Shown: piece after piece, positions 3,721 to 18,415 of the stretch
How positions within the stretch are numbered: the stretch's first letter is position 1
Layout: each line of letters opens with the position of its first letter
Virus record (IMG/VR): IMGVR_UViG_3300044712_002696
Coordinates: 1-20,026 of that record
Length of the DNA stretch: 20,026 bases
Reading direction: 5' to 3' (one strand)
Source: a virus
Notes under the pieces: generated by a model
The model's input: the letters and a program-made list of their open reading frames with translations, nothing else
Database searches by the model: none
Told to the model about the DNA's origin: nothing
Translations under genes and position numbers: made by a program

Positions 3721-4453
3721 ACCCATGCGCATTTTCGAAGGAAATGCCCAGCCCCACCAACCCTTTTGGCGTTTTCGGGACGCTGCCGGCAGTGAAAGCG
3801 GTGAGCCTGAACTCGAATTCTACGGCGTCATTTCTGAATTTTCGTGGCTGGGGGATGAGATCACCCCGAAGATGTTTAAGGATGACCTCTACACCCACGG
3901 CAAGGGCGGCCCGATCACCGTCCGGATGAACTCGGGCGGCGGTGATGTGATTGCCGCGTCGGTGATCCGCTCGATCATCGTCGATTATCCCGGTACGGTC
4001 ACCATGCGCATCGATGGCCTGGCGGCTTCGGCGGCCACCTTTGTGGCGATGGCGGGCGACCGGGTGAAGATGCAGGATACCGCCTTTTTCATGATCCACG
4101 ATCCGAGCGTGATGGCCTGGGGCACGGTCGATGAACTCAAGGCCGCGATTGACCTGCTGAAAACGGTCAAGGCCGGGATCGTGGATGCCTATCAGGGTAA
4201 GACCAAAATGCCCGCGGAAAAGATCGCCAAAATGATGAGCGATGAAACCTGGCTCACGGCGCGCGATGCCCTGGAGATGGGCTTCATCGACGAGATCATC
4301 TCAGCGCCAGGCGCGAAGAAAGCCCCCAAAAACCTGGCGATTATGAATTACGTGAATGTTCCGGTGGAGCTGCTCGAGCCCGAGCCCGAACCGGTGCAAA
4401 GCATCACACCCGAGGTAGAGCGCCTCCGTGATGAAGTTCGTTTACTCATGTAA
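3710..4453 (+). CDS. Prohead protease, ClpP-like (S14-type)
   Basis: A 247-residue serine protease that matures the prohead by trimming capsid scaffold domains. It has the ClpP-like layout: glycine-rich oxyanion strand 'MNSGGGDV' (about 73-80), nucleophile motif 'DGLAASAATF' with the probable catalytic Ser near 103, catalytic His in 'FFMIHDP' near 127, and 'MSDETWLTARDALEMGFIDEI' supplying the probable Asp and the closing helix. The C-terminus (EPEPEP, then a charged helix) is likely a flexible tail. The start is GTG 3710, because GGAGG at 3700-3704 has perfect spacing for it. A TTG at 3698 would overlap that ribosome site, and ATG 3725 lacks one. The gene overlaps the portal stop by 11 bases and precedes the capsid gene by 10. 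Confidence 0.9.
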   Translation: MSLKPMRIFEGNAQPHQPFWRFRDAAGSESGEPELEFYGVISEFSWLGDEITPKMFKDDLYTHGKGGPITVRMNSGGGDVIAASVIRSIIVDYPGTVTMRIDGLAASAATFVAMAGDRVKMQDTAFFMIHDPSVMAWGTVDELKAAIDLLKTVKAGIVDAYQGKTKMPAEKIAKMMSDETWLTARDALEMGFIDEIISAPGAKKAPKNLAIMNYVNVPVELLEPEPEPVQSITPEVERLRDEVRLLM

Positions 4454-4463
4454 GGAGAAAGGT

Positions 4464-5846
4464 ATGACCCCCAATCTGAAGATGTATTTAGATGCCGTTA
4501 CCACGGCGGAGGCGCATGTCCAGGAAGTGGCTGCGCAAATCGATGCCCTGTTTACCCAGGGAAAACAAGCCGATGCGCTGGCCATGCGCCCCGATTTGGA
4601 ATCGGCTAAGGCCGCGGCCAAGAGTGCCAACGAACTCTATTTGAGTATGCGCGGTGCCGGTGGCGAAGGCGGCGAGCGTGACGCCGGTTCCAACCTGACC
4701 CGGCGCTTGATGCAGGTCGACGATCGTTCGCTGGCCATCGGCATGAGTCAGAGCGAGATCGAGAAATACAGCCTGGTGCGCCTGATCGGATCGGCTGCCG
4801 AAGCGCTGCGCGGCAATGCCCGCGCGCTGGATAGCGCAGGTCTGGAAATGGAAGCCAGCCGGGCTATGGCCCAAAAGTTGGGGCGCAACCCCCAGGGCTT
4901 TTTCGTGCCGTGGGATGTGATGATCACCCCACCGGCTGCCCGTGGTGGCGCGGTGCGCATTCGCAATACCCAGTCGGTGGGCGATCCCACGACCGGCGGC
5001 TACCTGGTGGAGACCATGCAGGGTTCGTTCATCGACGTGCTGCGCAATAAGATGGTCACCCGCCAGGCGGGCGCCCAGGTCCTGACCGGATTGGTCGGCG
5101 ACGTGGATTTTCCCAAGAAAACCGCGTCTTCGACGGCCTACTGGCTGGGCGAAGGCACCAGCCCCACCAAGTCGCAACTGACCTTTGGCCAGGTGGAAGC
5201 CCGCAATCGCACGGTTGGGGCCTATGCTCAACTGACCCGCAAGCTGCTCAAACAATCCAGCATGGACGTTGAGATGATGGTGCGGGATGATATGGCTACC
5301 ACGTTGGCGATTGCCATTGACGCCGCTGGTCTGCACGGTTTGGGTTATGCCAACCAACCGCGCGGCGTGGCCAACACGCCAGGGATTGGCTCTGTGGTGG
5401 GCAACACGAATGGCGAGGCTCCGGATTGGACCGACATTGTCGACCTCGAAACCGCGGTGGCCATCGATAACGCCGATATCGGCGCCCTGGCCTACATCAC
5501 CAACACCAAAGTGCGCGGCAAGCTCAAGAAGACCCTGATTACCACCACTTACGGCGACAAAATGGTCTGGGGCGATGGACCGCAGCCGCTCAACGGCTAC
5601 CCGGCCTACGTCACCAACCAGGTGCGCAGCGACCTGACCAAAGGCAACCAGTCGCTCAGTTCGGCGATCTTCTTCGGCAACTGGAACGATCTGATCTACG
5701 CTCTGTGGGGCGGGCTGGATATCCTGGTTGATCCCTATACCAACTCGACCAGCGGGGACGTGTTGGTGACGGCTATGCAGGATGCCGACGTGGTTGTTCG
5801 CCGGGCCGAATCGTTCAGCGCCATGTTGGACGCGCTGACCGCGTAA
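4464..5846 (+). CDS. Major capsid protein, HK97 fold
   Basis: 460-residue shell subunit. Residues 1-65 are helical and charged (likely coiled coil), followed by a linker to about 160 with a conserved 'IEKYSLVRLI' helix. This matches the delta or scaffold region that the upstream protease would remove. The HK97 core starts near 'DPTTGGYLVE' (174-183). It continues with 'FPKKTASSTAYWLGEG', 'LTRKLLKQSSMDVEMMV' and 'GLGYANQPRGVAN', which is the usual order of N-arm, E-loop, spine helix and A-domain. The start is ATG 4464, preceded by AAGGAGAAAGG (4452-4462). An in-frame ATG at 4428 lies inside the protease gene and would add a nonsense extension. A strong hairpin lies 11 bases after the stop. Confidence 0.95.
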   Translation: MTPNLKMYLDAVTTAEAHVQEVAAQIDALFTQGKQADALAMRPDLESAKAAAKSANELYLSMRGAGGEGGERDAGSNLTRRLMQVDDRSLAIGMSQSEIEKYSLVRLIGSAAEALRGNARALDSAGLEMEASRAMAQKLGRNPQGFFVPWDVMITPPAARGGAVRIRNTQSVGDPTTGGYLVETMQGSFIDVLRNKMVTRQAGAQVLTGLVGDVDFPKKTASSTAYWLGEGTSPTKSQLTFGQVEARNRTVGAYAQLTRKLLKQSSMDVEMMVRDDMATTLAIAIDAAGLHGLGYANQPRGVANTPGIGSVVGNTNGEAPDWTDIVDLETAVAIDNADIGALAYITNTKVRGKLKKTLITTTYGDKMVWGDGPQPLNGYPAYVTNQVRSDLTKGNQSLSSAIFFGNWNDLIYALWGGLDILVDPYTNSTSGDVLVTAMQDADVVVRRAESFSAMLDALTA

Positions 5847-5857
5847 GTTTTTTCATG

Positions 5858-5886
5858 CGACTGGCCCCGGATGACCGGGGCAGTCG
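5858..5886 (+). other. Strong RNA hairpin after the capsid gene
   Basis: Seven G/C pairs (5864-5870 with 5875-5881) close an ATGA loop. After one bulged G (5863), five more pairs follow (5858-5862 with 5882-5886). The T-run (5848-5853) lies upstream of the stem and only TTT lies downstream, so this is not a classic intrinsic terminator in either direction. It could protect the 3' end of capsid mRNA or partly reduce read-through. It lies between the capsid stop and the next gene's ribosome site (5904-5909). Confidence 0.6.
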
Positions 5887-5915
5887 CCGGGTTTGAGAAT
5901 TGGAAGGAGTCTGTT

Positions 5916-6341
5916 ATGGATAGCATTTTGAAAGACTGCAAGATCTCGCTCTTAGCCCTCAAGGCTGCCAGCGATAACGAAGCGATCAACGGCAGCGGGG
6001 TCGACATGCAGGGCTTTGACAGCGTGGCCTTTATTGCCGGCGCGTATCGCGGCAATGTTGGCTCCCCGACCATCAAGGTCCAGCAAGATAGCGACGTCGC
6101 CTTCGGCACTGCCGCCGATCTGCTCGGCACCAGCGCCACCTTCACCACCGCGGCCGGTACGGATGGATTGACCACCGTCGAGATCCACAATCCCGGTAAG
6201 CGTTATCTGCGCCCGGTCTTGACCATTCCGGATTGGACTGCCGTAGCTACGTTCTGTATCGCGATCCAGCACAACGCCATCGACGAACCACAGACCAACG
6301 CCGGCGAGATCCACATCAGCCCGGCTGAAGGGACCGCCTAA
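5916..6341 (+). CDS. Putative head decoration protein
   Basis: A 141-residue protein directly after the capsid gene. Predicted by eye to be rich in beta strands: 'FDSVAFIAGAYRG' (30-42), 'TIKVQQDSDVAFGTAADLLGT', 'TTVEIHNPGKRYLRPVLTI' and 'TFCIAIQHNAID'. This layout, with a conserved 'KRYLRP' segment, recurs in small proteins next to phage capsid genes and suggests an outer-surface stabilising or decoration protein. No catalytic motif is visible. The start is ATG 5916, with AAGGAG (5904-5909) 6 bases upstream. An ATG at 5871 lies within the hairpin loop and right arm and has no ribosome site. The stop abuts the next start with no gap. Role is inferred from position and composition. Confidence 0.6.
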   Translation: MDSILKDCKISLLALKAASDNEAINGSGVDMQGFDSVAFIAGAYRGNVGSPTIKVQQDSDVAFGTAADLLGTSATFTTAAGTDGLTTVEIHNPGKRYLRPVLTIPDWTAVATFCIAIQHNAIDEPQTNAGEIHISPAEGTA

Positions 6342-6980
6342 ATGAGCAAGCGCACGCGGGTACTGGATACGGCCCGCGGTCGGGTGGCCGATCTCCAGGT
6401 TGAGGTTGTCAACGGAGATGGCACGTATGCGGTTTTGGCGCTGGCCTCCAGCGCCGAAGCCGCGGCGGGCACCAGTGAAGAACTGGCGGTAACTCCCAAA
6501 GGGCTGGCCGATCTGGCTGCCGGGTTTGTGCCCGCTGCCAGCACAACGGTACAGGGCAAGGTCGAACTGGCCACCGATGCTGAGGTGCAAACCGGGACCG
6601 ATACCGGACGAGTGGTTACCCCTGCCGGATTAGCCGCTTGCACCTCGACCGATGCTCGCAAGGGCGTGGTCGAACTGGCTACGGACTCCGAAGCGATTGC
6701 GGTCACCGATGCTGCCCGGGCAGTTACCCCGCACGGGTTGGGCGCGGCTTTGGCCAAGTTGTTCGTGATCTCGTTCACCGGGTCGAACCTGGCCGGGGCT
6801 TGCACGGCCACCGGCGTGGCGGTCAACGATGTCCTCTTCGGCGTGGCCGGTCTCACCGAAGTGGGCCAGGTCGACAGCAAGTTCGAAGCGGTTGTATCGG
6901 TCGTCAACCAGATTCAGCAATCTGCCGCGGAAGACCTCTCTACTAAGAACTTCCTGGCGTTGGTTTACCGGCCATCATAG
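6342..6980 (+). CDS. Fibre-like repeat protein of the head or neck
   Basis: 212 residues in three parts. An N-terminal leader (1-32) ends in 'VNGDGTYAVLAL'. Three imperfect repeats follow at about 33-58, 74-98 and 109-133, patterned as 'ELATD-x-E-x6-T-x-x-x-x-VTP-x-GL', the repeat familiar from phage fibres. The C-terminal module (142-210) is also found at the end of the next gene. The position, between the presumed decoration gene and the connector, suggests a fibre at the head surface or neck rather than at the tail tip. AAGGGA (6328-6333) precedes the ATG. No enzyme motif is seen. The fibre call is moderate, and the head or neck location is inferred from gene order and the shared module. 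Confidence 0.6.
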   Translation: MSKRTRVLDTARGRVADLQVEVVNGDGTYAVLALASSAEAAAGTSEELAVTPKGLADLAAGFVPAASTTVQGKVELATDAEVQTGTDTGRVVTPAGLAACTSTDARKGVVELATDSEAIAVTDAARAVTPHGLGAALAKLFVISFTGSNLAGACTATGVAVNDVLFGVAGLTEVGQVDSKFEAVVSVVNQIQQSAAEDLSTKNFLALVYRPS

Positions 6981-6990
6981 GAGCTGACCA

Positions 6991-7512
6991 GTGGCAAATA
7001 TTCTGAGCGCGGCGGAAGCTGCCAATGTTTTGAGATGTGACGTAACGGACGCGGCCATGCTCCAATTGCTGCCACTGGTCGACTCGTATATCAAAAACGG
7101 AACGGGGCGCGATTGGACTGCGGATACCACCATCCATCCGATGGCAAAGGCCGCAGCTCAAATGCTGCTGGTAATGTGGTACGAAGATCCGGGGATGCTG
7201 GGCCGGTTTCGGAATTTTGGACAAACCGCTCCGCTCAGCTTTGGGTTGACTGCGGCTTTAGCGCAATTGGAAGCACTTGCTGCACAGTACAAAACTTTTG
7301 TGGGCAGCAATGGCGCCGGGGCTTGCGTTCTATCCGGGGCGCAGATCGGCGATAGCGTTTCCAGTTTGATCGGCCTGGTTGGCGTGACCGGCGATCAACA
7401 TGCGGCGTTCGAGTCGGTTATCACCGTGGCGGACCAGATCCAACAGGTAGCCAGCGGCGATCTGAGCGCTAACTGGTATCGGGCTTACCTGATTTCTCCG
7501 GAGAGTCTATGA
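6991..7512 (+). CDS. Head-tail connector (gp6-like) with added C-terminal module
   Basis: 173 residues. Residues 1-100 match the HK97 gp6 or SPP1 gp15 adaptor type: a short helical protein with 'DVTDAAMLQLLPLVDSYI' near 17-34 and a hydrophobic helix 'AAAQMLLVMWYEDP', then a loop and a final helix. This ring docks under the portal. Residues 103-170 go beyond the usual connector and match the end of the preceding fibre-like protein (GSN-x-AGAC, later FE-x-V and QIQQ). The start is GTG 6991, with TAGGAG (6978-6983) upstream. The stop overlaps the next ATG (ATGA). The connector call rests on helical pattern and on its place just before a gp16-type stopper. Confidence 0.75.
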   Translation: MANILSAAEAANVLRCDVTDAAMLQLLPLVDSYIKNGTGRDWTADTTIHPMAKAAAQMLLVMWYEDPGMLGRFRNFGQTAPLSFGLTAALAQLEALAAQYKTFVGSNGAGACVLSGAQIGDSVSSLIGLVGVTGDQHAAFESVITVADQIQQVASGDLSANWYRAYLISPESL

Positions 7513-7835
7513 ACCCAGGCGACCTGCGCTATCAGATCACGATCCAGCAAAAGACCACGGTCCAGAACAGCTTCGGAGAAGGAACCGATACCTGGACCAC
7601 CGTAGCCACCGTCTTCGCCGCGGTCGATCCGCTGCGCGGGCAGGAATATCTGGAAGCCAGGCGCCTGCAAGCCGACATCGACGTCCGCTTCCGGATCCGC
7701 TATCGGGCCGGGCTTACGCCGGCAATGCGCGTGCTGCATGATGGCCGCTATTTCAACATCGAATCGGTCATCCACGTTAAAGAACTGCGAAGAGAGATCC
7801 AACTGATGTGTAGGGAGCTGATCAATGACGGTTAG
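7509..7835 (+). CDS. Head closure (stopper) protein, SPP1 gp16-like
   Basis: 108 residues, normal for this family (PF05521). Typical features are the opening 'MNPGDLRYQITIQQ', a central 'WTTVATVFAAVDPLRGQEYLEA' at about 29-50, then 'DVRFRIRYRAGLTPAMRV' and 'DGRYFNIESVIHVKELRREI', which form the small beta barrel. It sits below the connector ring and closes the DNA channel until ejection. The start overlaps the previous stop (ATGA) with GGAGAG just upstream. The stop lies 11 bases inside the next gene. Confidence 0.88.
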   Translation: MNPGDLRYQITIQQKTTVQNSFGEGTDTWTTVATVFAAVDPLRGQEYLEARRLQADIDVRFRIRYRAGLTPAMRVLHDGRYFNIESVIHVKELRREIQLMCRELINDG

Positions 7836-9156: not shown

Positions 9157-9588
9157 ATGGCTTTATCAGCGTTCGCTACCAAGTTGCAACTGGGCAATGC
9201 GGCCACGCCCGAGGTCTTCACCAACGTGGCCGAAATTACCGATATGTCGGGCCCTTCGCTTTCGCGAGACAGCATTGAAACCACCAATCATCAAAGCACC
9301 AACCATTTCCGCACGTTCATGCCCGGTTTGCGGGACGGCGGCGAGGTCAGCTTCAGCGTGAACTTCGACCCCTCCCTGGGCACTCACGACGAACTGACCG
9401 GGTTGCTCGCGCAATACAATGATGACCTCACCCACAACTATCGGATTGTGTATCCCCAGTCCGATACGGAAGGTTGGGCCATGACCGGTTTTTTGACCAA
9501 GATCGAAGTGAAGAACCCGATCGACGACAAAATCAGCGGTGACATCACCCTCAAGCTTACGGGCAAGCCGGTCTGGGGGACCTTCTAA
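9157..9588 (+). CDS. Major tail tube protein
   Basis: 143 residues. Subunit of the hexameric rings that stack into the tail tube. The sequence shows the usual features: an opening strand 'FATKLQLGNAATPEVFTNVAEITDM', the conserved 'SRDSIETTNHQS' at about 36-47 (the family's 'etiEvTnhdS'), 'FMPGLRDGGEVSFSVNFDP', a middle helix 'HDELTGLLAQY' and a final strand 'ISGDITLKLTGKP'. AAAGGA (9144-9149) lies upstream of the ATG. It sits just before the chaperone pair and the tape measure, the standard order. Confidence 0.9.
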   Translation: MALSAFATKLQLGNAATPEVFTNVAEITDMSGPSLSRDSIETTNHQSTNHFRTFMPGLRDGGEVSFSVNFDPSLGTHDELTGLLAQYNDDLTHNYRIVYPQSDTEGWAMTGFLTKIEVKNPIDDKISGDITLKLTGKPVWGTF

Positions 9589-12697: not shown

Positions 12698-13086
12698 TGG
12701 CCAATGAATTCAAGATTGCCACCTATGTTGCAGGCGTAGCCGGGCTGACCCTGCTATCGGCCCTGACCGTCCCCATTCCGGATCCCCAGGCTCATTTCCG
12801 GCTCTATACCGACTATGAGGACCTGGGCGATAAAACCAAGCTCGGTATAGGCGCGCCCTGGGCCGAGTGGCGCTTTCCGGTGCTCACTACCGAGCAGCGC
12901 AATCAGTTGCGTTATTATTGCGCCGGTGCATCGCTCCGGCTGTACATCCGCACCATCAAAGAGGATCAGCTCACCTTTGCCTCTTACCTGGCGGTCATGG
13001 TCTGGCCGCTGGACGAACCGCCCGCGATCGGTGGCCTGATCGAAGGCTTGATCCTGCGCTTCGAAGACCTGGAGGTACAAAGCTGA
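12697..13086 (+). CDS. Minor tail protein between tape measure and hub, family unknown
   Basis: 129 residues not assigned to a named family. The start overlaps the tape measure stop (TGATG) with GGAAGG upstream, and the end overlaps the next start in the same way. The sequence opens with a soluble hydrophobic stretch, then has beta strands 'AHFRLYTDYEDLG', 'WAEWRFPVLTTEQRNQLRYYC', 'ASLRLYIRTI' and 'LILRFEDLEV'. Distal-tail (Dit-like) and small tip proteins occupy this position in siphophages, so a structural tail-tip role is likely, but the sequence does not establish it. The chain is shorter than classic Dit proteins (about 200-250 residues). Confidence 0.6.
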   Translation: MANEFKIATYVAGVAGLTLLSALTVPIPDPQAHFRLYTDYEDLGDKTKLGIGAPWAEWRFPVLTTEQRNQLRYYCAGASLRLYIRTIKEDQLTFASYLAVMVWPLDEPPAIGGLIEGLILRFEDLEVQS

Positions 13087-15914
13087 TGGCCCGCGCCATG
13101 ACCACCCCCGAACAAACCCTGATGCGCACCGCTGGCCAGCGCAGCAAATTGCGCCTGGCGATCTACAATCCTGCCACGGTCTATGCTGCCAGGGTCAATC
13201 AGACCATCACCACCACCGACCAGGTCAAAGAGCTCATCTATGACGGCGGATCGGGCACCCTGGCCAACGTTCTGCCCGATATGACCCTGCTGGTGGGCAC
13301 TGCCGCCGGACTGGGCGATAAGGGCGTGCTGCGCATTCGCAAGGCGCCCAGCGCAACTGTGATTTATTTCAACGAAACCAGTGAGGTCGCTTGGGCCGAT
13401 AATGATTATCTGACCGTGTTAAACGAGTTCCTGCCCGCAGCCCGACCGGTCTTTACTGCCGGCGAATCGCTGCTGATCGATTCGGAAATCGCCTACACCG
13501 GGCAGCACTTCTTTTGTGAGCCTGTGCCGATTATGGGGCCGGCTGTGGCCGTGCTCGAACTTACCGGCGCCAGCGTCAGCCACACCCGCAGCCCGGGCGC
13601 GTCTTACTGTCCAGGGTCGACGATCAGCACCTACGCCTGGGCAGCCACCGGCCCGGCATCCGTCACCATCACCAATGGGACCACAGTCACCCCGACCTTT
13701 GTATTTACCGCTATTGGCTGGTATCGCCTGGCATTGACGGTCACAGCCGCCAATTACGTCAGCCGCACGGGGTACCGCTGGGTTTATATCTGGGATGCAG
13801 CTCACCCGCTGATCGACTTCTCCGGCCCGGCCCCCACCGGCAGCCAGGACGCCGGCGGATGGGAATTTTCCATCACCAAAGCCAACCAGGCTGATCTTAC
13901 CTACATCGATGATCGCGCAATGGTGGCCGTAGTGGCAGAGGATTGGTATGGATCGACAAAGCAATCCGTAGGACCCGTATCCGGATTCGAAAACGTGGTG
14001 GCCATCGGCTGGATCTCCGGAGAAACCATCGAATGGGATCCGCGTAAGTTTTCGGTCAAGTTTTCGGTCAAGGGTCCGCATTACTGGCTATCGCAGCTCA
14101 ACGCCCAATCGGTCACCCTCAAGAATATTACCGACGCCATCCCAACCGAGTGGGACCAATTCCACGACCTGACCGTCGACCAGGCGCTCTGGCACGTGTG
14201 CGCCTGGCGCTCGACGATCACGACCTGCATGGATGTGTTTTTGACAGGGGATACCGCGTTGGTGCCGATCATCAGCGGTACGGGGTCCTCACTGTGGGAG
14301 GCACTGCGAACCATCTCCAAAAAGATCGGAGCATCGCCACTCTGTGACCGCTATGGTCGCCTGTTCATCGAAGTCGATACCCAAGTTTTACCCACTGCCG
14401 ATCGGGCCGCGATCCCGATCGTGATGGACGTCGGCAAGGTCGACTGGAAGGACAGTATCCAGCTTGCGCGCCGGTTGACCCGGGTTGTATCCATCCTGGA
14501 TTTATCGGCCCAATCCTACGATGGCACGACCACCACTCAGATCCTGGCCCGCGCGCCTGGCAATGTCGGCGCCCAGTATGGACGCCCTGACACCTCAGAC
14601 GGTTGGATCGTCCCTACCCAGGACCGTGCTAACGAACTGGCCGGGCTGATTTGGGCGCAGCGCAATAACGCCTACCCGGTCGAACCGATCTCAATCGCCG
14701 CCAACAATCGCATGATCGATATTTGCCCACGCCAGGTGATCACCCAGTCGCTGTCCACCGGCGATACTGTGCGCGGCCTGAGCTGGACCACCCGGCGATT
14801 GATCCCGCGCCGAGTCGAATTTGTGCTCAATCCCAAAACCGGGCGGATGCACACTGAGGTTGAAGCCGAAACCGAGACGACCGGACCGGTGGGGGTGAAG
14901 GTTATCCCATCGCAGCCGCCTGTGGTCAATATTCCGCCACAACCACCGATTCCGAAAAATCCTCCGCCAGGATGGGTAGATACGCCCTGGTACCCGCCAT
15001 ACGTCCCAAAAGAGCCTAAACCAGGAAGCTGTGGAAGCGATTTAGGAAGCCATAATGGTCCGTGGACCTTATATTTTGATAACAACATTTTGCTTCCGAG
15101 CAATTCGGTTTATGCCTATTTCCCTGCCGCGATCCGGGCGAAGTTGGCCGGATATAACACAACCTATATGGAATTATATGCAGTCGCGCAGTTTATTTCT
15201 GCTGATTTAATTTCGGTGGCAGCAATAGATAATGCGAAAGCTGTTCTTCTAAACGGATTTTTTAATAACGATCCGGTTAATAGCTATGTAGTTGAGGGAC
15301 GCGGGGTAAAATTCGAACCAACCAACTGCATGGAAATTGCAGGAATAAAAATATCATTAGGTAGTGGTACTGATTGGGATTGGAACGACGACCAGCCACA
15401 CGGGTGGCAGGATAGTGGCACTCCTTACGGCACGTTTGGGATGATGCCGTTGGGTGGGGAATCGTGTCCTCCTGTAACTACGTATACAGGTGGGGTAACG
15501 ATGAATCAAACCACCTGTGGTGGCTCTACGGATCATGACGTATTTCTGGCTTTGCCTCAGGGAACAGGGAGCGCCACAGGCGCTTATGTCATATTTAATG
15601 TGACCTGGGTAGATTGGGATCATGATCATCCTGGAAATTGGCGCTATTTGATCGCGGGGATTACCTATACGGACCATACATACGACACGGTGACAATTTA
15701 TACCGGTTATGAGAACCAACCGGTAAATTATTACGCCTATGTTAGCGCCGGGAATGAAAATAAGGAGGTCGGGCGAATTGATATTGTGCTGCTGGGGTGG
15801 TATGCGGGGTGCATTGTGAGGATCAATTCGGTCAACCTGGTTGGATTCTCTGTTTCGGCGGGACAACGAGTCTTGATCTCGCCATCGTATCTCTATAATT
15901 TGGTGCAGTCATGA
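13086..15914 (+). CDS. Large tail-tip protein with PKD-like domain and appended C-terminal region
   Basis: 942 residues, probably the tail hub or tip protein. Residues 1-150: beta-rich start ('RLAIYNPATVYAARVNQTI'). About 154-240: an Ig or PKD-like fold, 'STYAWAATGPASVTITNG' then 'FTAIGWYRLALTVTA'. About 290-600: a hub-like region ('WEALRTISKKIGASPLCDRYGRLFIEV', then 'GLSWTTRRLIPRRVEFVLNPKTG'). About 612-648: a proline-rich linker. 649-942: an AT-richer tail with two acidic aromatic motifs ('DWDWNDDQPHGW' at 763, 'DWDHDHPGNW' at 843). The start is ATG 13086, with GGAGGT (13070-13075) upstream; an in-frame ATG at 12867 is within another gene. A 12-base tandem repeat at about 14049-14072 doubles 'FSVK'. 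Confidence 0.7.
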   Translation: MARAMTTPEQTLMRTAGQRSKLRLAIYNPATVYAARVNQTITTTDQVKELIYDGGSGTLANVLPDMTLLVGTAAGLGDKGVLRIRKAPSATVIYFNETSEVAWADNDYLTVLNEFLPAARPVFTAGESLLIDSEIAYTGQHFFCEPVPIMGPAVAVLELTGASVSHTRSPGASYCPGSTISTYAWAATGPASVTITNGTTVTPTFVFTAIGWYRLALTVTAANYVSRTGYRWVYIWDAAHPLIDFSGPAPTGSQDAGGWEFSITKANQADLTYIDDRAMVAVVAEDWYGSTKQSVGPVSGFENVVAIGWISGETIEWDPRKFSVKFSVKGPHYWLSQLNAQSVTLKNITDAIPTEWDQFHDLTVDQALWHVCAWRSTITTCMDVFLTGDTALVPIISGTGSSLWEALRTISKKIGASPLCDRYGRLFIEVDTQVLPTADRAAIPIVMDVGKVDWKDSIQLARRLTRVVSILDLSAQSYDGTTTTQILARAPGNVGAQYGRPDTSDGWIVPTQDRANELAGLIWAQRNNAYPVEPISIAANNRMIDICPRQVITQSLSTGDTVRGLSWTTRRLIPRRVEFVLNPKTGRMHTEVEAETETTGPVGVKVIPSQPPVVNIPPQPPIPKNPPPGWVDTPWYPPYVPKEPKPGSCGSDLGSHNGPWTLYFDNNILLPSNSVYAYFPAAIRAKLAGYNTTYMELYAVAQFISADLISVAAIDNAKAVLLNGFFNNDPVNSYVVEGRGVKFEPTNCMEIAGIKISLGSGTDWDWNDDQPHGWQDSGTPYGTFGMMPLGGESCPPVTTYTGGVTMNQTTCGGSTDHDVFLALPQGTGSATGAYVIFNVTWVDWDHDHPGNWRYLIAGITYTDHTYDTVTIYTGYENQPVNYYAYVSAGNENKEVGRIDIVLLGWYAGCIVRINSVNLVGFSVSAGQRVLISPSYLYNLVQS

Positions 15915-18415
15915 GCAATTTAGCATTACGCAAGGCATTTGACCGCAGAATCGGGAAAAAGCAGGACAAACAAATCGCGTTGCCAGGCTTGTTGGGAAAT
16001 GGCAGCGGTCTGGTCAGTGTTTCAGGGCGCGAAAATTATGTGTATATACGGGCGTGGGATGGGATCCAGGAAATATTTAACAGTCGGGTGCCGCCTGAAA
16101 ATGATATCCAGGTGTGGATTGGATATGACCCGGTACAGCCAGATTTGTTGCAAGTGCTCTCAACGCGATCTGATGCACCAGGCGGAGCGAATGCAGGATA
16201 CGCGCCGGCGAGCCGGTATGAGTATGGCGGGGCCGATCCGATCCATCTCGATAAACGGCAGGCGATGTGGGGAGGGTACGTTGGCCGGGTAAGCGGGATG
16301 GTGATTGGGGTCTGGCCGGATTATATCTGGAGCGGAGCGGAACATGTGCTGTGCGCGTACCAGACGCTGGACTTGACCACGCACATTCCGGCCACGACGG
16401 GCAAGGCGGCGGCGGTGCTGATTACATGGAACACCAGCGGCGTGGCGGTGGCTACCAAAGGCAGCGAGGTGGACTTTGCCAGCCTGACGCTGGCCAATTG
16501 CCCGGCGGCGCCGGCCGGGACCGTGAAGGTTTTGGCGGCGGTGCGGGTGTACTACGGTCAGACCGCGGTGCAGGAGACACAGACCAACACCGATATCATC
16601 GACCTTCGGGATAGCGCGTATGGGGCCGGGTCGACCATTGCGCCGGGTACGGTGCCATTGTCGGCGCTGGCCAACATTGCAGCTAATACGGTGATCGGGA
16701 ATAACACCGGGTCGCCGGCGACGCCGGCGGCGGTGACCATTGGAGACCTGACGGCGTCTTCTCCGTTGGCGGTGAGCGCAACCCGACAGGTGATCGGTGG
16801 GGCGGCGGCGGTCAAATTGGGGGCAAGCGCGGCGGATAAATATTTGTATTCGACGGCGCTGGATACGTGGGCAGAAGGAGTAATAACAGCAGCGGGGCGG
16901 GCGCTTTTGGATGATGCGACGGCGGGGGATCAAAAGGCCACGTTGGGGATCGGTGGGATGGCTACGTCGATCACGGCAGGCAAGATGTTGACGTTGGCGG
17001 CGACGGATAATTACACACTGACGGTGCCGGCGACGGGGACGACAGCGCTACTAGCAACCGCTAACGCATTCACGATTGGGCAGTCTATAGCCGGATCTTC
17101 TGACATCGTGCAACTCAAAGTTAAAGCGAATGCCACACAAACCGCAAACACGTTTGAAATACGCAGCAGCAGCAACATTCTGCAATTAGGCGTAAACGGG
17201 AATGGGGAATTGGGTCTTGGAACTGGGGCAGTTGCTGGAGTTATATTCAACGCGGTAAAAACATATACCGATACAACCGGGTACATGTATGGGATGAAAT
17301 TCATTCCGATCCTGTCACCAACGGCGGACGGGACGGCTAATCTAATCTCGTTTGCGCTGTATCCAACAGCCGGTCAAGTTGCCTACGATCTCAGTTCTAT
17401 AACGGGTTTCTTCATCCAGCCGTCTATCCAGCACCTGGCTGGGGCCAGCATTTCCAATGTGCGCGGCATTCAGGTGCAACCCGATTTCACAGTAACCTCT
17501 GCGGGTACCGTTACAAACAGTCAGGCTATATATATTCCTGATATCAACAAGCACGCAAGCTCAACTGAGGCATTGACTAACCAATATGGTATTTATATGG
17601 ATAGTCAAACCAAAGGAACCAATAATTATGTTATCTATACTAATGCCGGATTGGCTCGGTTAGGAGACCAGCTCTCAATTGTTGGGAGCGCAGACCGGCA
17701 GCAGCTTATTATCACTGGATATTCAACGCAGGCAGTAGCGACGGCGATGGCGCAGATCACACGCAACGATGCTGCGGCAGGCGTGTCGGCTATGCTCGGT
17801 CTGACCGCTCTTGGCAGCGGGGCGGCAGGGGATGGCGGGGCGATCTATCTGCGTGGTAAATCGAGCACAACCGCGGGCCAGGATATGGCGCGGATTGAGT
17901 ATTTATGGACCACGGCCACACACGCGAGCCGGACGGCTGATCTAATATTCTCGACCACGTTGGCCGGGACGCTCGCGGAAAAATGGCGGATGACCGGGTC
18001 CGGACGGCTCGATGGCATGAAGGCCGGAATCACAGAGGAGGGAGGCTTTTACGTCGTCTTGGTCGCCGGTGAGGATTTAGCGCGTGGGGAGGTGGTATCG
18101 AATAGCACCACGACCGACGGGCGAGTTGTTAAAAATCCAACCGATAGTGATATGCCGTGGGGGGTGGTATACGCGGATGCAACTACCGGAAATCCTGTCA
18201 AAATTGTTACGGATGGGATCGCGTATGTCCTTCCGGAGAGCGGGGTAATGGCGGCGCGGGGGTATGTGATTTATTCGTCGGGGAGCGAGGCAGGGCGGGG
18301 AGCGCAGGCGTCGAGCGTGCCGGCGGCTTTACAGCACTGGCGCGAGATTGGGCACTTCATTGACACAGGTTCGGGCAATGGGGCGTTGACCCGGGCTATC
18401 ATTCACCAAAATTAG
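15911..18415 (+). CDS. Tail fibre protein
   Basis: 834 residues with a modular fibre layout. Residues 1-240 are a globular start with 'IEIFNSRVPPENDIQVWIGYD' type strands (real text 'IFNSRVPPENDIQVWIGYD', about 55-73), likely the attachment part. About 240-350 holds repeats common in trimeric fibres, such as 'NIAANTVIGNNTGSPATP' and 'ITAAGRALLDDATAGDQKA'. About 380-604 is an AT-richer, less repetitive stretch. About 704-834 is a compact C-terminal domain ('GEDLARGEVVSNSTTTDGR', 'PWGVVYADATTGNPVKIV', 'HWREIGHFIDTGSGNGALT'). The start overlaps the previous stop (ATGA), and no strong ribosome site is visible, so it probably relies on coupling. It probably mediates host-surface recognition; the receptor is unknown. 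No chaperone domain is recognised. Confidence 0.8.
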   Translation: MSNLALRKAFDRRIGKKQDKQIALPGLLGNGSGLVSVSGRENYVYIRAWDGIQEIFNSRVPPENDIQVWIGYDPVQPDLLQVLSTRSDAPGGANAGYAPASRYEYGGADPIHLDKRQAMWGGYVGRVSGMVIGVWPDYIWSGAEHVLCAYQTLDLTTHIPATTGKAAAVLITWNTSGVAVATKGSEVDFASLTLANCPAAPAGTVKVLAAVRVYYGQTAVQETQTNTDIIDLRDSAYGAGSTIAPGTVPLSALANIAANTVIGNNTGSPATPAAVTIGDLTASSPLAVSATRQVIGGAAAVKLGASAADKYLYSTALDTWAEGVITAAGRALLDDATAGDQKATLGIGGMATSITAGKMLTLAATDNYTLTVPATGTTALLATANAFTIGQSIAGSSDIVQLKVKANATQTANTFEIRSSSNILQLGVNGNGELGLGTGAVAGVIFNAVKTYTDTTGYMYGMKFIPILSPTADGTANLISFALYPTAGQVAYDLSSITGFFIQPSIQHLAGASISNVRGIQVQPDFTVTSAGTVTNSQAIYIPDINKHASSTEALTNQYGIYMDSQTKGTNNYVIYTNAGLARLGDQLSIVGSADRQQLIITGYSTQAVATAMAQITRNDAAAGVSAMLGLTALGSGAAGDGGAIYLRGKSSTTAGQDMARIEYLWTTATHASRTADLIFSTTLAGTLAEKWRMTGSGRLDGMKAGITEEGGFYVVLVAGEDLARGEVVSNSTTTDGRVVKNPTDSDMPWGVVYADATTGNPVKIVTDGIAYVLPESGVMAARGYVIYSSGSEAGRGAQASSVPAALQHWREIGHFIDTGSGNGALTRAIIHQN

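Follow-up and report, generated by a model that had tools for sequence, protein, structure and literature searches.

An undescribed, predicted all-beta domain at the C-termini of a gp6-like head-tail connector and of the adjacent fibre-like protein of a siphovirus-like phage

Introduction

Ig-like accessory domains are known from the structural proteins of phages (Fraser et al. 2006, cited in PMC10276861 and PMC10684548), and surface display is the role that has been proposed for them. A described case at the phage neck is the adaptor of roseophage R4C, which forms a dodecameric ring on the portal; cryo-EM has located the Ig-like domain of this adaptor in contact with the capsid, and the authors favour local stability over adsorption as its role (PMC10276861).

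Here, we have analysed a complete IMG/VR virus record of 20,026 bases, referred to as “the window”, where two adjacent genes of a siphovirus-like structural operon encode a short fibre-like protein and a head-tail connector, and where the last ~70 residues of both proteins form the same module. The findings are presented in the order of the locus itself, the homology, fold and distribution of the module, and the proteins that carry it; loci other than the window are denoted by L numbers.

The locus and its two module-bearing proteins

The operon has been outlined by the Pfam and PHROG matches to the ORFs of the window: it starts with terminase (PF03354/PF20441), portal (PF04860), a protease-like gene and the HK97-fold capsid (PF05065), continues with a 156-aa protein, the 212-aa fibre-like protein, the 173-aa connector and the head completion protein (PF05521), and ends with neck/tail completion, tail terminator, major tail protein, tape measure, tail proteins and integrase. 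The fibre-like gene is thus located after the capsid genes and before the connector, and both ORFs have the boundaries that a preliminary description of this DNA had given; the connector has a GTG start (Table 1).

Table 1. Features of the window around the two module copies, and the fold neighbour of the module in another phage.
Feature	Position	Strand	Basis
Major capsid protein (HK97 fold), upstream neighbour	4428..5846	+	PF05065, E 3e-40
Fibre-like protein, short, 212 aa: N-terminal part, fibre repeats, C-terminal module	6342..6980	+	ORF; PHROG 910
Fibre-like repeats, residues ~63-138, 'TTVQGKVELATDAEV..TDTGRVVTPAGLAA', two units	6528..6755	+	PHROG 910, 15547, 30320 and 972 matches; sequence
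Module copy 1, residues 142-212 of the fibre-like protein	6765..6977	+	Alignment; AlphaFold2 pLDDT 94.3, all-beta
gp6/Ad1-like head-tail connector with C-terminal module, 173 aa, GTG start	6991..7512	+	ORF; PHROG 40; AlphaFold2 pLDDT 92.2
Helical connector domain, residues 1-98	6991..7284	+	Five helices in model; 98 relatives
Module copy 2, residues 100-172 of the connector, in the exchangeable C-terminal slot	7288..7506	+	Alignment; model; slot analysis
Head completion/closure protein, downstream neighbour	7509..7835	+	PF05521, E 2.5e-31; PHROG 25
DLP05_013, hypothetical protein, 97 aa, among neck/tail genes	L063:9068-9361		Predicted-fold neighbour of module

The N-terminal parts of the two proteins are unrelated, as the same description had stated: residues 63-137 of the fibre-like protein match the tail collar fibre family PHROG 910 (E 8.5e-19), whereas the connector matches PHROG 40 (“head-tail adaptor Ad1”; 9.8e-4). 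PHROG 40 also matches 20 of 25 relatives (best 3.5e-7), PF05135 matches one of the 25 (0.0064), and the match of the L080 connector to TIGR01560 in NCBIfam is below the cut-off. The AlphaFold2 model of the connector (pLDDT 92) has a helical fold of ~100 residues, with five helices within residues 7-97, and the gene is located between the major capsid and the head completion protein in the window and in most connector loci; in profile match, helical fold and gene position, the window protein is a gp6-like/Ad1 connector.

The 156-aa protein (window 5871-6341), in the interval between the capsid and the fibre-like gene, matches PHROG 5707, a family of unknown function (2e-7), and more weakly a major tail protein; it is possibly a further decoration protein, and labelled relatives of it are present in L020 and L042. 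The large tail proteins at 15911-18415 (834 aa) and 13062-15914 (~950 aa) have no credible family match in Pfam or PHROGs.

Homology of the two module copies

The alignment of the two C-terminal segments (Smith-Waterman, BLOSUM62) has a score of 122, far outside the scores of 5,000 shuffles (mean 26, s.d. 5, maximum 57), so that the shared module noticed in the preliminary description is supported; the full-length pair scores 135, where the best of 2,000 shuffles reached 76, with 35 of 80 aligned residues identical. The shared residues that had been named are all present (FTGSNLAGAC/FVGSNGAGAC, FEAV/FESV, QIQQ in both copies, and AAEDLS/ASGDLS), and the copies are 39% identical in the module alignment. 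A third copy was sought in the frames of the window, where nothing scored near 122 (next best 51). Across the family, E, Q and Q are invariant in 47 of the 47 aligned modules.

The longest DNA identity between the two copies is 12 bases, and therefore the copies are not recent. Their history has been examined with a tree of 99 distinct modules, whose inner forks are weak because the alignment has only 73 columns; the tree has one main split, which separates 61 connector-borne modules from 38 others (support 94/93, 92% of bootstrap trees), and the same F-E/QIQQ/DLS core motif is kept in both groups, with E, Q and Q near-universal. The two copies of the window fall on opposite sides of this split: the fibre copy groups with the fibre copies of other phages (98/97) and the connector copy with other connector copies (95/99). 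The two-sided tree indicates that the domain moved between both kinds of carrier long ago, and that the window pair descends from two old lineages.

If a gene or domain had been duplicated locally, within the lineage of this phage, the adjacency of the two genes and the homology of their C-terminal ends would be explained, but the placement of the copies across the main split contradicts it, DNA similarity does not exceed 12 bases, and the window fibre module is 58% identical to the fibre module of L010, against 39% to its neighbour on the connector; we consider such an origin hardly credible. The earlier reading of the pair as a duplicated domain fused to two proteins is thus retained in one part, namely one domain on two otherwise unrelated proteins, and abandoned in the other, the local duplication.

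Predicted fold of the module

The AlphaFold2 model of the fibre module, computed for the module alone with 47 relatives, has a pLDDT of 94.3, a pTM of 0.83 and five main strands, while in the model of the full connector (pLDDT 92.2) the five helices (7-97) are followed by the strands of the module from residue 100. The same all-beta pattern is predicted with high confidence for both copies, different folds being the outcome that would have spoken against a shared module; the strand order and the short “E-HHHE--E--E--EEEE” stretch are common to the two models, of which the connector model was built from an alignment of connectors only and the fibre-module model from one that also contained connector modules.

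The search of the PDB with the fibre-module and connector models gave no structure at E<=0.001. The HK620 tailspike and ubiquitin E1 are weak matches common to the lists of both models, as is expected if the two copies have one fold, and neck/adaptor chains were matched weakly by the connector model (6toa_C, probability 0.25; 8i4m_M, 0.21). Among predicted viral structures, the best neighbour of the module is DLP05_013 of Stenotrophomonas phage DLP_5 (BFVD A0A2D2W332; TM 0.71 by query length, probability 1.00, E 0.0048). As a sequence relative, DLP05_013 was rejected (hhalign probability 0.6%, with a DLP05_013 profile of only three close sequences), and its predicted likeness to the module appears to be one of fold only. 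Another of the viral matches (TM 0.60, probability 0.96) is a “Gp6 domain containing protein” from an uncultured phage, possibly a case of similar architecture elsewhere.

Distribution of the module

Profile searching of the module has revealed no known family in Pfam, PHROGs or NCBIfam: the 47 module members have no credible match in these libraries or among PDB sequences. None of the 47 matches the Ig families Big_2, Big_5, I-set and fn3 in Pfam at E<=0.1; as regards the Ig fold, the model is all-beta and has no PDB match at E<=0.001. Carbohydrate-binding modules gave no significant Pfam family or PDB fold match either. Three candidates were rejected: PF09625 (VP9), for which the best E is a weak 0.0013 and which we take to be an alpha/beta fold, against the predicted all-beta fold of the module; Cohesin, with a weak match of 0.0029; and the four-copy repeat chain 21nr, whose 2e-5 is summed over repeats at ~11 bits per copy and was read as composition.

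Three module queries gave nothing by tblastn against 50,697 phage genome records, where a terminase query, used as the positive control, matched 1,492 records; one module query gave nothing against 72,556 plasmid records. A viral scan with exact peptides of the fibre module alone was also empty, because exact peptides are too diverged, while alignment-based scans and scans with an L022 query succeeded. The IMG/VR scans located the module in dozens of contigs and in one Verrucomicrobiota MAG (L006); judging by their IMG identifiers, the records L043, L044 and L046 appear to derive from isolates. The module is an undescribed domain family, common in IMG/VR contigs and absent from the libraries searched.

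Carriers of the module

At the end of proteins encoded among the head or neck genes, the module is preceded by at least eight different N-terminal parts. Its carriers include gp6-like connectors and fibre-repeat proteins, short anchors whose repeats read “VESGGxLxVxxGA” or “AVTTAKI..AVTGxKL”, proteins of 78-79 aa that consist almost wholly of the module, and one 389-aa carrier with a long N-terminal part. Complete proteins end with the module or no more than 10 residues beyond it, those of L006 and L041 excepted. In different loci, the carrier gene comes directly after major head genes that are unrelated in family (HK97 PF05065, PHROG 422, PHROG 752, PHROG 283); in L044, it is located immediately upstream of a PHROG 6013 tail protein.

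Adjacent module-bearing gene pairs of which neither member is a connector occur at L035:1081-1780, L040:5227-6201 and L059:5030-6216; the L040 pair shares a similar N-terminal part and looks like a real tandem duplication.

The C-terminal slot of the connector

Connectors were collected with a profile of the first ~98 residues, from which the module had been left out, giving 98 connectors in non-redundant loci. Among these, 78 bear the module, 12 have a Big_5 Ig-like domain instead, 7 are bare and 1 is cut by the contig end; these numbers (78:12:7) do not reflect unbiased frequencies, because the set consists of the best 80 of 215 matches together with earlier loci that had been found via the module. 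The bare connectors (99-103 aa) stop at or just beyond the junction, and the Big_5 tails have been confirmed with Pfam (PF13205; L058 7.1e-11, L070 4.7e-13). On the connector tree, the states of the slot require about 12 changes, with well-supported branches forcing single labels to 3-5 changes. The exchange is most direct in L080 and L072, whose connectors are identical at 78 of 93 residues (84%) and whose tails are unrelated, module in L080 and Ig-like in L072. Judging from these sequences, the C-terminus of the connector is an exchange slot, in which the module has been acquired, has been lost and has given way to a domain of another family.

Big_5 (PF13205) occurs in place of the connector module at L058:6227-6829 and in L065, L070-L073, L086, L104, L126, L131 and L132. 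In L080 (3701-4498), L082, L132 and L141, an extra N-terminal domain (“QLIAFVI..LSKNGGAFAAG.GTKAEIGSGWYSYELTASETDT..”) precedes the helical part; that of L080 has a weak match to Invasin_D3 (0.0051). In about 60 connector loci, the major tail protein likewise has a C-terminal Big_5, while the major tail protein of the window (9157-9588) is without it; the tail genes of the window seem to be from a different lineage than those of most connector relatives.

Function of the module

The module is probably a promiscuous accessory domain for surface display or decoration of phage head and neck proteins, and not a specific joint between fibre and connector: an all-beta domain of ~70 residues that tailed phages add to their head and neck structural proteins and swap in and out. 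By analogy with gp6-like adaptors such as that of R4C, ~12 connector modules would ring the neck, while the module of the fibre-like protein, placed after the fibre repeats, would form a tip or knob; the generic role could be weak binding to host-surface or environmental polymers, or stabilisation of the particle. A generic display role is the most likely because unrelated folds can replace the module. The preliminary description had proposed instead that the fibre docks at the neck through matching domains, the connector and fibre modules pairing with each other. Identical domains can self-associate, and a search for other phages with the module on both adjacent genes has brought their number to four distinct phages including the window (the others being L010, L023/L025 and L048-L050). 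If modules docked in this way, module-bearing upstream genes should accompany module-bearing connectors, and no such association is seen: upstream module genes also occur next to bare (L030) or Big_5 Ig-bearing (L058, L086) connectors, the gene upstream of a module-bearing connector mostly lacks the module, and among distinct loci with enough upstream sequence, in small numbers, an upstream module gene accompanies 4 of 53 connectors that bear the module and 3 of the remaining 17 (Fisher p = 0.35). The two copies of one genome also belong to separate lineages, and docking by matching domains is very unlikely; contact between like modules may still occur in this one phage.

The main rival to surface display is local stability, as argued by the R4C authors, with the module in contact with the capsid surface: the connector module would tie the neck ring to the portal vertex, and the module of the upstream protein would hold a decoration or fibre on the head. 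Both genes are located between the capsid and head-completion genes, and the peripheral Ig-like “attachment domain” of the R4C adaptor, which contacts the capsid protein, is a precedent (PMC10276861), although that domain is N-terminal and the present one C-terminal. In close relatives, the slot is often empty or filled by an Ig-like domain that is unrelated to the module, and the capsid genes that precede module genes are of unrelated families; with such variability a specific capsid contact could hardly be maintained, and we judge it unlikely. The conservation of E, Q and Q and of the F-E/QIQQ/DLS motif exceeds what a loosely selected decoration needs, and could reflect a specific ligand or contact. 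The invariant residues, with the DLS turn, might form a putative carbohydrate site for weak adhesion to host or matrix polysaccharide; their persistence in two long-separated groups is consistent with this, as are the lactococcal neck passage proteins, which exchange C-terminal domains of which some are carbohydrate-binding (PMC10684548). Against it stand the lack of a significant fold match to a known carbohydrate-binding module, noted above, and the fact that the conserved polar residues may be structural: the E and QQ could be either structural residues or a putative ligand site, and carbohydrate binding is, on balance, improbable. Quite unlikely is the proposal that the module is an undescribed binding-domain family of uncultivated phages, with a putative E and QIQQ-DLS ligand site displayed on the neck ring and on the head/neck fibres of the same particle; if true, the phage would be equipped with a second means of adhesion, at a distance from its tail tip.

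Comparison with known systems

The new family joins the few mobile accessory domains that are known from structural proteins of phages, and it comes with a natural experiment: one connector scaffold occurs in three C-terminal states (module, Ig-like domain, nothing) in close relatives, so that the long-standing question of the purpose of domains appended to neck proteins becomes directly testable.

Like the Ig-like accessory domains, the module is a small beta domain on several unrelated virion proteins, mobile and dispensable in close relatives, and it shares the connector slot with a real Ig-like domain (Big_5). It differs from them in that it matches no Ig family in Pfam and no PDB structure significantly, in its conserved E, QIQQ and DLS, and in its strict occurrence on head/neck genes in the loci seen. 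From its distribution over sequences, the module appears to work as phage Ig-like domains do, added to unrelated proteins and variably present, while belonging to a different family.

The first ~98 residues of the 6991-7512 protein correspond to the HK97 gp6-like connector (PHROG 40; PF05135), being helical and encoded before the head completion gene, and the protein differs from that connector by its extra C-terminal beta domain. The roseophage R4C adaptor likewise has a peripheral accessory beta domain, which is Ig-like and N-terminal, whereas that of the window connector, known from sequence and model, is not Ig-like by sequence and is C-terminal (PMC10276861). The lactococcal neck passage structure proteins resemble the connector in that a C-terminal domain is exchanged between close relatives; there, the carrier is a neck fibre protein, with receptor-binding and pectin-lyase-like domains being exchanged, while here the carrier is the adaptor (PMC10684548).
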